This document shows, one piece after another, positions 8,068 to 12,205 of a stretch of 64,000 nt of DNA. The notes under the pieces were generated by a model that was given only the letters and a program-made list of their open reading frames with translations, was not told the DNA's origin and did not search any database. Both the position numbers and the translations under genes were made by a program. The DNA is from Oscillospiraceae bacterium (lineage in GTDB: Bacteria; Bacillota; Clostridia; Oscillospirales; Oscillospiraceae), in assembly GCA_902774015.1 (NCBI GenBank), contig CACYHB010000003.1, forward strand, positions 1 to 64,000, written 5' to 3'. Every line of letters begins with the position of its first letter. Position 1 is the first letter of the stretch.

Positions 8068-9294
8068 ATGGCAAAATACTATTACGACAAAAAAGCCCTG
8101 AAGGGGCTGACCCCGTTCCCGTTCCTGGGCGAGGTCAAGACCCGCAACGCTGCCATTGAGGCCGCGCCCGCCACGCCGCCCAGATCCGTCTACAACGCGA
8201 ACGTTCTCGCCGGGCGCCTGCACCCGGCGGCACAGCACTGCATCATCAAAAAAGTCGAAGATCACGGCGACGCCAAGAGCTTTACCCTGATCCCGGATGC
8301 GGCGAAGGGTACGGAGAAGCTGGCCTACTTCCGGGCGAGCCAGTATGTATCCGTGGCGCTGAACATCGACGGCGCGCCGGTGCGCAAGCCCTACACCATC
8401 CGATCCAATCCGAAAGACGCTCTGGGCGCGGAGGGGGGCAGCTATACACTCACCATCAAGCGCACGAACCCCGCCTACGCCTCTGCCTGGATCCTGGAGC
8501 ACTGGAAAGAGGGCGACGCGGTGGAGATCTCCGGGCCTCTCGGTGATTTCTACTATCAGGATCTGCGGGACGCCGGGCAGGTCATCGCCATCGCGGGCGG
8601 CTCGGGCATCACACCCTTCTACTCCATGGCCGCCGCCATCGTGGACGGGATCGAGGACTTCTCTCTTACCATCCTTTATGGCTCCCGGACAGCCGACGGC
8701 ATCCTTCTGAAAGAAGAGATCGAGGCCCTGGCGGAGAAGAGCGGGGGCAGGGTAAAGGTCGTCCACGTTCTGTCCGAGGAGGAGAAGGAGGGCTACGAAC
8801 ACGGCTTCATCACCGCGGAGCTGATTCAAAAGGTTGCGCCGGATGGCGAGTTTTCCGTCTTCATGTGCGGCCCGAAGGCCATGTACGTCTTCGGCGAGGA
8901 GCAGTGCAAAAAGCTGGGCCTGCCCAAGAGGAGATACCGCATGGAGATGTCCGGCGACTATATGGGCGCGGTCAACAACCCGGATTATCCCAAGGATCGG
9001 ATCGGGAAGAGCTATACGCTGACCGTGGACATCCGCGGCGAGAAGACTGCCGTCCCCTGCAGGGCGGAGGAGAGCCTGCTCTGGGCCATGGAGCGCGCGG
9101 GCATCAGGGCGCCGGCCCACTGCCGCAGCGGCGAGTGCGGCTGGTGCCACTCGCGTCTCGTCAAGGGCGAGGTCTATATCCCCGCCGAGGCCGACGGACG
9201 CCGCCTGGGCGACATCAAATTCAACTGGATTCACCCCTGCGTCAGTTTCCCCCTGAGCGATATCGAACTCTGCGTTTACCCGACGGCCGAGTAA
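8068..9294 (+). CDS. FNR-type NAD(P)H:flavin reductase fused to a C-terminal plant-type 2Fe-2S ferredoxin
   Basis: This 408-residue protein begins with an unassigned 50-residue segment. An FAD-binding beta-barrel follows (RKPYTIRS motif near 110), then an NAD-binding domain (AGGSGITPFYSM) and MCGPKAMYVF. The C-terminal 90 residues form a plant-type ferredoxin: the CRSGECGWC motif gives the CX4CX2C spacing and a later HPC supplies the fourth cysteine. Such proteins pass electrons from NAD(P)H through FAD and 2Fe-2S to a partner. The obvious candidate is the CrtI-like flavoprotein directly upstream, one base away; that pairing is inferred. Confidence 0.87.
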   Translation: MAKYYYDKKALKGLTPFPFLGEVKTRNAAIEAAPATPPRSVYNANVLAGRLHPAAQHCIIKKVEDHGDAKSFTLIPDAAKGTEKLAYFRASQYVSVALNIDGAPVRKPYTIRSNPKDALGAEGGSYTLTIKRTNPAYASAWILEHWKEGDAVEISGPLGDFYYQDLRDAGQVIAIAGGSGITPFYSMAAAIVDGIEDFSLTILYGSRTADGILLKEEIEALAEKSGGRVKVVHVLSEEEKEGYEHGFITAELIQKVAPDGEFSVFMCGPKAMYVFGEEQCKKLGLPKRRYRMEMSGDYMGAVNNPDYPKDRIGKSYTLTVDIRGEKTAVPCRAEESLLWAMERAGIRAPAHCRSGECGWCHSRLVKGEVYIPAEADGRRLGDIKFNWIHPCVSFPLSDIELCVYPTAE

Positions 9295-9342
9295 GGCCGG
9301 AGCGGAAACCGCGCAGATCGGTATAGAAGAATCTAGGATTGA

Positions 9343-9388
9343 AAAGAGACCTTTCGTTTCCCATTTATGATGAACGAAAGGTCTCTTT
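9343..9388 (+). terminator. Long hairpin ending the redox operon
   Basis: Arms 9343-9358 and 9373-9388 are exact 16-bp reverse complements (AAAGAGACCTTTCGTT) with a 14-nt loop; the 3' arm ends in TCTTT. The space from here to 9576 shows no ORF or clear element. Confidence 0.7.
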
Positions 9389-9576
9389 GCGTTTGCGCGG
9401 ATCCTCCGGCAGGCAGCGGCTCATAGGGAGACCGGAATAGGCTCCGCCGGCTGCTGCAGCCTGCCTGCCCGGGCGGGCTGACTTCCTTCCTTTGCGGCGG
9501 GAAGCTCGCTTCCCTATTTCCCAAGGAAAGACAAAAAGAGGCAGAAGCATGCCTGTACTTTTCTGCGGGGCTTCCG

Positions 9577-9782
9577 TATAATGACTATATGATGGCGAAA
9601 AGCCAAAAAGCTTTTTGCCGCGCGGCTTTGCCGCGCAGCCAAACAGTATAGCTGTTTGGCCATATATTCATTGCAATGAGCATCGTGCGAATGATTCCAT
9701 GAATCATTCGCTGCCAAACTTGTCGTTTGGCAGCGAAATCAATCGAACCCTCGATTGATTTCGCCATCCGATGATCATTATA
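9577..9782. mobile_element. 206-bp MITE-like element made of consecutive hairpins (element B)
   Basis: Outer 24-bp inverted repeats: TATAATGA-N6-GATGGCGAAA (9577-9600) and TTTCGCCATC-N6-TCATTATA (9759-9782). The interior is almost wholly hairpins laid end to end: 9594-9603/9610-9619, 9620-9626/9630-9636, 9638-9646/9652-9660, palindrome 9668-9679, 9688-9697/9701-9710, 9710-9719/9725-9734, and 9735-9746/9751-9762. No ORF. TA lies just inside both ends, as for MITEs that duplicate a TA target; this is inference. The right end supplies a TATAAT (9779-9784) with TTGATT 18 bp upstream, which could serve the GH94 gene. Confidence 0.75.
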
Positions 9783-9820
9783 ATGGCAGACAGAAGGATG
9801 TGTCAAAAAGGGGGATTACC

Positions 9821-12205
9821 ATGCAGTATGGCCATTTTGACAATGAGAAGCGGGAATATGTGATCGACCGGGTGGATCTGCCCGTGTCCTGGACCAACTA
9901 TATAGGCACCGGCGATCTGATGGGCGTGTTCAACCACACCGCCGGAGGATATCTGATCTACAGGAGTTCGGAGTATCACCGCATCACGCGCTTCCGGCCC
10001 AACGGCGTACCCATGGACGGGCCGGGGCATTACCTCTATCTGCGCGACGAGGAGGACGGGGACTACTGGTCCGTCTCCTGGCAGCCGGTGGGAAAGCCCA
10101 GGGAGCATTTCCGTGCGCGGCACGGCCTGGGCTACGTGAAATACGAGAGCGATTACAGCGGCATCGCCGCCGAACAGACGCTCTTTGCGGCGATGGACGA
10201 TCCGGTGGAGATCTGGGATCTGCGGCTGAAAAACGACTCCGGACGGGAGCGGCGGCTCTCGGTTTTCTCCTATCTGGAGTTCAGCTTCCACCAGGTGGAC
10301 ATGGACAACCGGAATTTTCAGATGAGTCTCTACGCCGCGGGCAGCCGCTGCGAGGACGGCGTGATCGAGCACGATCTCTATTACGAGGAGGACGGCTATC
10401 AGTTCTTTACGGGGGATTTTGAGCCGGACGGCTATGACTGCCTCCGCGACGCTTTCATCGGCCCGTACCGCACGGAAAGAAACCCCATCGTCGTGGAGAG
10501 CGGCAGAACGGGCGCCAGCGCCGAGAAGGGCGGAAACCACTGCGGCTGTCTGAAAAAAACGCTGACGCTCCGGCCCGGGGAGGAGGCGCGGCTCCTGTTC
10601 CTGCTAGGCGAGGGCGGCGTTGAGGAAGGCAGACGCATGCGCGCAAAGTATACGCAGCAGAAGGCGGATGAGGATTTCGCACGCCTCGCGGCCTTCTGGG
10701 ACGCAAAACTCTCCCGCCTGCAGGTATGCACGCCCAACGAGGGCATGAACACGGAACTGAACATCTGGAACCTTTATCAGAGCGAGATCAACGTCATGTA
10801 CTCCCGCTTTACCTCCTTCATCGAGGTGGGAGGACGCGTAGGCCTGGGCTACCGGGATACGGCGCAGGACGCCATGATGGTGCTCCATTCCAACCCGGAA
10901 AAATGCCGCAGCCGCATGATCGAGCTGCTGCGTGCCCTGACCGCGGAGGGCTACGGACTCCATCTGTTCGAGCCCCGCTGGTTTGAGCCGGAGCAGAAGC
11001 GGCAGAGCTTCAAGTCTCCCACGGTGATCCCCATGCCGGACAGGGCGCAGATCGTCCACGGCCTGAAGGACGCCTGCGCGGACGATGCGCTCTGGCTCGT
11101 CAGCGCCGTCGTGCAGTATGTAAGGGAGACGGGCGACGCCGCTTTCCTTGACGAGCCGGTGGGCTATGCCGACGGGGGAGAGGGGAGCGTCTACGAGCAT
11201 CTGCGCAGGATCCTGGAATTCTCCGCCCGACAGGTCGGGCGAAACGGAATCTGCAGGGGACTGCGGGCCGACTGGAACGACTGCCTGAATCTTGGCGGCG
11301 GCGAGAGTGCCATGGTGAGCTTTCTGCATCTCTGGGCGCTGAACAATTATGTGGAGCTGGCCCGATGGCTGGGGCGGGAGGAGGACGCCGCGCGCTATGC
11401 GGCCATGGCCGAAGCGGTCCGGGAGACCTGCCGGCGCGTTCTGTGGGACGGAAAATGGTTCCTCCGGGGGATCACCGCGGACAATCGGAAGATCGGGACG
11501 CAGAGCGACGCCGAGGGCCGCGTTCACATGGAGTCCAACACCTGGGCGGTGATCTCCGGCGCCGCCACCCGGGAGCAGGGCCTTTCTGCCATGGACAGCG
11601 TGGATGAATACCTTTTCACGCCCTATGGGCTCCTTCTCAACGCACCCTCTTACACAAAACCGGACGACGAGATCGGCTTTGTGACCCGGGTCTATCCCGG
11701 CCTCAAGGAGAACGGCGCCATTTTCAGCCACCCGAACCCATGGGCCTGGGTGGCGGAGAGCATGCTCGGACGCGGCGGCAGGGCGATGAAATTCTATAAT
11801 GCCTTGTGCCCGGCGCTGCAGAATGATAAAATAGAAATACGGCAATCGGAACCCTACAGCTACTGCCAGTTTGTGGTGGGGCGCGACCACACGGCTTTCG
11901 GCCGGGCGCGGCACCCCTTCATGACCGGTTCCTCCGGCTGGGCCTACTACGCGGCTACCCAGTATCTGCTGGGCGTGCGGCCGGACTTTGACACACTGAT
12001 CGTCGATCCCTGCATCCCGGCGGAGTGGCGGGAATTCACCGTCAGCCGCATCTGGCGCGGCGCGCGCTATGAGATCCGCGTAAGCAATCCGGACGGTGTG
12101 GAGAAAGGGGTCAGGTCGATATCCGTTGACGGGGAAGAAGTTGACAGCATTCCGAACTATCCGGCCGGAAGCGTCTGCTGGGTGGAAGTTGTCATGGGAG
12201 AATAA
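9821..12205 (+). CDS. GH94 family glycoside phosphorylase (cellobiose/chitobiose phosphorylase-like)
   Basis: This 794-residue protein has the length and layout of GH94: an N-terminal beta-sandwich (to about 270), a linker, an (alpha/alpha)6 catalytic barrel and a short C-terminal beta domain. The family motif GYRDTAQD is near residue 346. RADWNDCLN holds the likely catalytic aspartate, D484. GH94 enzymes cleave beta-linked disaccharides with phosphate, giving a sugar-1-phosphate. Exact specificity (GlcNAc or glucose linked) cannot be read here. The ATG at 9821 follows AGGGGGATT. A phosphohexomutase gene follows, with its ribosome site overlapping this stop codon, and a sugar ABC importer lies downstream. 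No signal peptide: it acts in the cytoplasm. Confidence 0.88.
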   Translation: MQYGHFDNEKREYVIDRVDLPVSWTNYIGTGDLMGVFNHTAGGYLIYRSSEYHRITRFRPNGVPMDGPGHYLYLRDEEDGDYWSVSWQPVGKPREHFRARHGLGYVKYESDYSGIAAEQTLFAAMDDPVEIWDLRLKNDSGRERRLSVFSYLEFSFHQVDMDNRNFQMSLYAAGSRCEDGVIEHDLYYEEDGYQFFTGDFEPDGYDCLRDAFIGPYRTERNPIVVESGRTGASAEKGGNHCGCLKKTLTLRPGEEARLLFLLGEGGVEEGRRMRAKYTQQKADEDFARLAAFWDAKLSRLQVCTPNEGMNTELNIWNLYQSEINVMYSRFTSFIEVGGRVGLGYRDTAQDAMMVLHSNPEKCRSRMIELLRALTAEGYGLHLFEPRWFEPEQKRQSFKSPTVIPMPDRAQIVHGLKDACADDALWLVSAVVQYVRETGDAAFLDEPVGYADGGEGSVYEHLRRILEFSARQVGRNGICRGLRADWNDCLNLGGGESAMVSFLHLWALNNYVELARWLGREEDAARYAAMAEAVRETCRRVLWDGKWFLRGITADNRKIGTQSDAEGRVHMESNTWAVISGAATREQGLSAMDSVDEYLFTPYGLLLNAPSYTKPDDEIGFVTRVYPGLKENGAIFSHPNPWAWVAESMLGRGGRAMKFYNALCPALQNDKIEIRQSEPYSYCQFVVGRDHTAFGRARHPFMTGSSGWAYYAATQYLLGVRPDFDTLIVDPCIPAEWREFTVSRIWRGARYEIRVSNPDGVEKGVRSISVDGEEVDSIPNYPAGSVCWVEVVMGE

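Follow-up and report, generated by a model that had tools for sequence, protein, structure and literature searches.

Upstream of the GH94 gene in the window (by which we mean the whole 64,000-nucleotide stretch analyzed, GC content 58-61%) lies a non-coding element of 206 bp (9577-9782), and the question it raises is what such a stretch of palindromes is doing in front of a gene. The initial annotation, made from the letters alone, described seven palindromic units between 24-bp inverted ends and no ORF, and offered three readings: a non-autonomous transposable element, a highly structured RNA or a cruciform-forming DNA site. The left neighbor of the element is a gene with FAD/NAD and 2Fe-2S domains that ends at 9294; just past it, at 9340-9388, there is a palindrome (AAAGAGACCTTTCGTT...AACGAAAGGTCTCTTT) that looks terminator-like by eye.

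The structural description holds. The seven palindromic units are six hairpins and a central palindrome, the 24-bp ends agree at most positions (Table 1), and the element contains no gene-like ORF; nine open frames of at least 20 aa overlap it. The longest of these besides the GH94 frame (73 aa) extends beyond the element, and the GH94 reading frame is open upstream as far as a TTG at 9755, within it. Beyond that description, the palindromes are arranged in two three-armed units, each closed by a stem of distant partners, and the element occurs in multiple copies. From an alignment and pair counts over 48 copies, the order is T-AT-[AATGA unit TCATT]-GC-[AATGA unit TCATT]-AT-A: two back-to-back cloverleaf units of ∼93-105 bp, each with a closing stem AATGA/TCATT around three hairpins, joined by GC and flanked on both sides by AT. 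The alignment derives from the 101 full-length copies among 181 hits, 91 of them 196-212 bp long, each copy being retained only at <93% identity to those retained before it. The region 9540-9830 has a folding energy of -130.3 kcal/mol (z = -9.07), which none of 200 dinucleotide shuffles equals.

Table 1. Coordinates of the element, its parts and the adjoining GH94 promoter region in the window
Feature	Position	Strand	Evidence or remark
Whole element by the AT rule, AATGA...TCATT-GC-AATGA...TCATT	9580-9779		48-copy alignment, empty sites
Left inverted end	9577-9600		20/24 positions match right end
Right inverted end	9759-9782		20/24 positions match left end
TATAAT at left junction, at the place of relatives' GH94 -10 box	9577-9582	+	Orthologue comparison
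Left AT, putative duplicated or core dinucleotide	9578-9579		AT in 46/48 copies; empty sites
Left cloverleaf unit	9580-9672		Stem 9580-9591/9661-9672; helices 1-2, 6/11 pairs changed on both sides
Hairpin A	9594-9619		Fold and covariation (helix 3)
Hairpin B	9620-9636		Fold and covariation (helix 4)
Hairpin C	9638-9660		Covariation (helix 5)
Central palindrome TCATTGCAATGA	9668-9679		Seventh palindromic unit beside the six hairpins
GC between units	9673-9674		GC 44, TC 3, AC 1 of 48 copies; AT in 0/48
Right cloverleaf unit, stem pairing its two ends	9675-9779		Helix 6, 5/11 pairs changed on both sides
Hairpin D	9687-9711		Covariation (helix 7); loop carries insert in seven G042 copies
Hairpin E	9712-9732		Covariation (helix 8)
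Hairpin F	9733-9764		Covariation (helix 9), 11/13 pairs changed on both sides
TATAAT straddling right end	9779-9784	+	TTGATT at 9755-9760, spacer 18
Right AT, putative duplicated or core dinucleotide	9780-9781		AT in 44/48 copies
GH94 gene, downstream; its promoter received the element	9821-12205	+	PF17167, E = 7.9e-169

Copies are dispersed within the host genus, which consists of uncultured bacteria, and their flanks differ. There are 22 BLAST matches at 15 separate places in the window's own genome, some of them partial, and 55 of 102 genomes in the genus match the element at E ≤ 1e-3; among 15 genomes of the same order outside the genus, none matches at the DNA level. Genome G042 alone has 46 end matches in which no more than two bases differ, with at least one right end among them, against none for a reversed control pattern. 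Two copies (L068 and L073) lie in opposite orientations at one site, and orthologous sites are filled in some genomes and empty in others. According to the initial annotation, a single copy conserved at one locus with no empty sites would speak against mobility; we find the opposite, and its reading of a non-autonomous transposable element is strongly supported by the dispersal, the differing flanks, the filled and empty orthologous sites and the opposite orientations. The element is almost certainly mobile. It has no blastn match among phages and plasmids, and a search of viral contigs with one exact 28-base pattern gave zero matches. We found no description of the family in the open-licence literature, which is not searchable by sequence, so that this is weak evidence of absence.

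The copies vary in their inner parts. Single-unit copies occur, such as L025 with AT on both sides, and some copies are without hairpins of the right unit. Seven G042 copies (within L294-L300) are 355-358 bp long and hold a conserved three-hairpin insert of ∼150 bp in the loop of hairpin D, the site at which another copy (L018, genome G021) has a different insert; an Rfam scan of L018 and of two long copies (L295 and L300) gave nothing above gathering score. Across these variants, the ends persist and hairpins are gained and lost. In gene context, counted on 87 of the 181 hits with crude ORF calls, 25 copies lie between convergent genes, 43 between tandem genes and 19 between divergent genes. 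The element had been judged no ordinary terminator, and that judgment stands: the terminator reading is contradicted by the ends, orientation and copy number, despite the 25 copies in convergent settings.

Comparison of filled and empty orthologous sites bears on how the element enters DNA. Where one copy (L016) is present, its orthologues L080 and L052 are empty and read CCTCC-TATAAA. With symmetrical ends, this implies that AT was duplicated once or that the element was inserted bluntly at A^T, and not that TA was duplicated. The TA duplication suggested initially predicts, with symmetrical ends, an empty site that L080 and L052 do not show, and we rejected it on that ground; were the ends unequal, duplication of TA could account for L016. 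The reciprocal comparison, L052 filled against L016 empty, agrees with the AT rule (TTTG-AT-CGCG and TTCT-AT-GGCG, in an alignment 74% identical), and L040 agrees roughly, its right end being decayed and its site approximate. A 4-bp TATA duplication is ruled out by the outermost left and right bases, which differ freely (for example, in L011 and L052). The empty sites for the window copy, L016, L052 and, roughly, L040, all drawn from other species rather than from strains of one species, fit a putative 2-bp AT duplication or a blunt A^T insertion.

The flanks are symmetrical (TT-AT-AA). Among the 80 of 101 full-length hits that have intact ends and enough flank, the AT is preceded by T in 54 and followed by A in 48, and the next bases outward are T in 47 and A in 41. 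These counts show the apparent target to be a TTATAA-like palindrome with central AT. In our reading, a TTATAA-like string in a GC-rich genome such as this one will often be a sigma-70 -10 box, so that insertion would rebuild TATAAT at one or both junctions. At 238 distinct intact ends, a TTGACA-like box (at least five of six bases) is found 16-18 bp upstream of 20, 12 of them at exactly 17, against a background of 1.24 per spacing over 37 other spacings (P = 3e-9, Poisson); this count supersedes a smaller one (13 of 87 ends, 1.9 expected). Several per cent of the ends or more, though still a minority, thus coincide with predicted canonical -10 boxes, and most do not.

At the GH94 locus, the element lies at a promoter. 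In the genus, 21 of 23 orthologues (L197-L219; L220 and weaker matches were set aside) are without the element, and in these a TATAAT or TATACT box begins 30-51 bases upstream of the start codon. L219 has no such box, and L203 has its own copy in the opposite orientation, partly N, whose end lies 66 bases upstream of GH94 and so outside the 30-51 interval. Excision of the window element by the AT rule gives CTTCCG-TATAAT-GGCAG, with the box 42 bases upstream. In the same way, copies occur at or near the mnmG promoter in three genomes (G000, L044, truncated; G083, L234; G087, L227, truncated), and mnmG relatives have a TATAAT box where these copies sit. Such comparisons show that the element has entered pre-existing promoters. 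At the right end of the window copy, the -10 box noted initially is present together with a -35-like partner (Table 1), and a promoter there that drives GH94 is possible. On the minus strand, 9777-9806 matches the sigma-70 consensus TTGACA-N18-TATAAT at 12 of 12 positions, a better match than the one on the plus strand, and is directed from the GH94 leader into the element. A GACAAAAAG-GGCAG-like stretch, possibly an operator, is found 30-40 bases before the -10 box in the window and in most of L197-L217.

The paired structure has been maintained through sequence change. Across the 48 copies, 47 of 80 pairs are altered on both sides, compared with 13.0 ± 2.3 after shuffling, a test that kinship of the rows inflates, and with 16-22 pairs in slid controls, over which the structure has an advantage in being drawn from the same alignment. 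The closing stems (helices 1, 2 and 6), whose partners are 77-105 columns apart, have changes on both sides in 11 of 22 pairs. RNA stems tolerate G-U, not A-C. In the element copies alone, on which this comparison was made, G-T (52) and A-C (57) mismatches are equally rare among 3823 paired cells (P = 0.70, binomial). The pairing thus has no preferred strand, an indication of DNA more than of RNA: it would have been kept for folded DNA, through a process acting on DNA, or equally on the two strands, and not for a one-strand RNA. We consider it quite likely that the constraint acts on DNA.

A structured RNA, or a 5′ leader regulating downstream genes, would explain the strong fold and the copies that, as at GH94 and mnmG, lie between promoter and start codon. 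We regard it as very improbable, given that G-T is not in excess over A-C, that the copies take no fixed orientation to genes (in the crude count above), that Rfam has no family at gathering score in the window at 9300-9900, and that nearly all GH94 orthologues do without the element. The highly structured RNA of the initial annotation is accordingly disfavored; its cruciform-forming DNA is compatible with the data, short of proof.

Outside the genus, a covariance model of the layout, run with strict filters, finds matches in nine of 245 genomes of the order and in three of 391 genomes of the class, own included in each case. Copies in G034, G280, G283 and G516 end in ATAAT...ATTAT-like sequence, are joined at a CATTGCAATGA-like junction and carry their hairpins in groups of three, and most of their arm sequences are unlike those of the window; the match in G693 (L425) was set aside. 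G228 has the junction CATTTGAACGA, and its second unit ends in AACGA/TCGTT, a paired change. Some arms have been lost in L371 and L426, and L372 of G315 keeps the layout with different ends. By these matches, the layout appears to persist across families of the order and class while arm sequences change.

Paired changes can also arise from template switching during replication without selection, and the strongest rival to a fold-recognizing system is an ordinary MITE, in which a resident DDE insertion sequence would read nothing but the inverted ends, and the inner hairpins would be by-products that template switching keeps tidy. The element has the inverted ends, small size, lack of a gene and many copies of a MITE, and template switching, being a DNA process, would likewise yield equal G-T and A-C. 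Such switching has been proposed to create and maintain perfect stems with compensatory changes (PMC8794818). However, the closing stems covary over distances that are far for hairpin template switches, and the layout is retained across families despite changing arm sequences. Inversion of the loop of hairpin E, a mark of template switching, was seen in two of 100 loops, compared with 1.6 expected for random 5-mers (calculated by hand); at this chance level, we rejected it as proof of the process. In the two copies concerned, L278 and L045, the loop is nearly the reverse complement of the common one. Nor is there an association with IS630, the DDE family that the search covered, which occurs in six of 55 element-bearing and 11 of 47 other genomes (P = 0.11) and is absent from G000, G041 and G042; DDE_3 loci show no element end pair. 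DDE families are not known to duplicate a 2-bp AT. An ordinary MITE is in our view unlikely, if the most serious of the alternatives.

No mobilizer or autonomous relative was found in a search that covered Y1/RAYT, IS630 and serine recombinases. We considered whether the element is REPIN-like and moved as single-stranded DNA by a Y1/RAYT transposase. REPINs are likewise doubled palindromic units forming small non-autonomous mobile DNA, for which single-strand folds are proposed (PMC3116915), and RAYT-like proteins are present in the genus. Yet 30 of the 55 genomes that bear the element have Y1 transposases, as do 26 of the 47 that lack it (P = 1.0), and no copy lies in the stretches around 20 Y1-like loci, 19 of whose proteins are RAYT-like by eye. 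Inspection of three IS200-type loci by eye revealed none of these ends, and scanning L324-L365 for the motif turned up just two hits, both isolated (L338 and L360). The target is symmetrical, moreover, and the ends are inverted and have no GTAG or CGTC tag. We thus give little credence to a REPIN-like origin, and neither IS630 nor Y1/RAYT, which do not co-occur with the element, was retained as mobilizer. Many RAYT-like proteins of the genus (L336 and L338-L355) bear variable peptides at one place (RRGDPCGRP and VGADALGGP, for example), which may be palindromic repeats translated within the gene.

We also considered a serine-recombinase-like reaction with an AT core, in which a circle junction TCATT-AT-AATGA would recombine with TTATAA-like sites. 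AT is the center both of the palindrome formed by the joined ends and of the symmetrical target, the internal junction is GC in 44 of 48 copies, and gamma-delta resolvase cuts at TTATAA. For IS607 transposases, a route through a circle with a matching overlap dinucleotide has been proposed, and the structure of activated gamma-delta resolvase has 2-nt 3′ overhangs (PMC4058570). Against this, although 35 PF00239 matches occur in seven of eight genomes, none of 30 serine-recombinase loci scanned is bracketed by two element ends, and the serine recombinases at these loci were set aside on that count; no circle was observed. One such locus (L399) contains the right end of a copy, and G114, a genome 74% complete, bears the element and has no serine-recombinase match. 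A reaction of this kind appears improbable. Separately, in G042 a left-end-like match (L407, 3240-3285; E = 1.4e-4) lies past a gene for a 522-aa serine recombinase, with no second end.

A long autonomous copy was also sought in G042. Among its 80 end matches, the only pairs >356 bp and <5 kb apart span 668 bp and 2935 bp. The first is a copy plus a second end; the second, to judge by eye, contains frames resembling LysR and a hydrolase but none for a transposase, the genomes being incomplete. ORFs were read in L414, L415 and L418 among 11 stretches (ten at lone ends, one with a Y1 fragment). With no transposase visible by eye in either pair, neither was retained as a long autonomous copy.

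We return to the reading of the element as a non-autonomous mobile DNA, a dimer of two cloverleaf units perhaps moved through folded DNA, which is probably correct; whether mobilization depends on the fold is, to us, evenly balanced. A recombinase encoded elsewhere would recognize the folded units, as cruciforms or single strands, and would join the AATGA...TCATT ends to the AT of a TTATAA-like site, so that AT flanks the inserted element at either end. Fold recognition and AT-core joining are favored together: the layout persists while the arms change, the constraint is strand-neutral, AT is the center of a palindrome in the sequence made by joining the ends (TCATT-AT-AATGA) as well as in the target (TT-AT-AA), and the dinucleotide between the units is something other than AT. 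There the half-sites of the outer ends recur around GC, and if the central dinucleotide must match, this would hold the dimer together. TATAAT rebuilt at the junctions may keep the neighboring gene transcribed. From the layout, the strand-neutral constraint and the palindromes we infer an enzyme.

More tentatively, and with the odds in our estimate against it, the element may belong to a mobile class scattered across Clostridia and conserved mainly in a double-cloverleaf dimer fold and AATGA/TCATT-like half-sites, with largely free arms, which a recombinase would read as folded DNA and insert by matching its AT core at TTATAA-like promoter boxes, and which would be locked as a dimer by its GC inner core, and would be neither a DDE MITE nor a RAYT REPIN. 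Because the fold of this mobile DNA is retained across families to a greater extent than its sequence, and one genus offers a natural set of filled and empty promoters, it becomes testable whether bacterial mobile DNA can be recognized in folded form by something besides HUH enzymes already known, and how promoters come to be invaded, with no silencing of genes, by insertions that restore a -10 box.

Among known systems, MITEs with terminal TA (RUP, Correia/NEMIS and ERIC) resemble the element in being small and multi-copy with inverted ends and stable folds, and Correia elements have 24-bp inverted ends and can bring promoters (PMC2229807; PMC10969869). Like MITEs in general, the element is short, non-coding and multi-copy with terminal inverted repeats. 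It differs from RUP, Correia/NEMIS and ERIC in having AT and not TA at the insertion, a TTATAA or -10-like palindromic target, and two cloverleaf units whose six hairpins change in pairs. Nor does it, with symmetrical ends, show the TA duplication of IS630/Tc1-type MITEs, and most genomes that bear it have no resident IS630 transposase. REPINs, too, are doubled palindromic units mobile as one that fold in single-stranded DNA (PMC3116915), with palindromes described as 20-40 bp and tagged GTAG or CGTC (PMC3733652); here the folds are three-armed and ∼93-105 bp, the ends (ATAATGA/TCATTAT) are inverted, AT-rich and untagged, and RAYT genes are not associated. The likeness to IS607 serine transposases and resolvase crossover sites, which join at a matching central dinucleotide (PMC4058570), is formal only, no recombinase being linked to the element. 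In Caulobacter CIR, two long inverted repeats form two arms and a linker (PMC2229807), an arrangement similar to ours except that the CIR arms are single and have a GANTC motif. The BOX elements of pneumococcus are described as composite repeats of modular build whose inner modules come and go (PMC3049150), as do those of this element, but they are built of boxA, boxB repeats and boxC, where the present element consists of two similar closed units.
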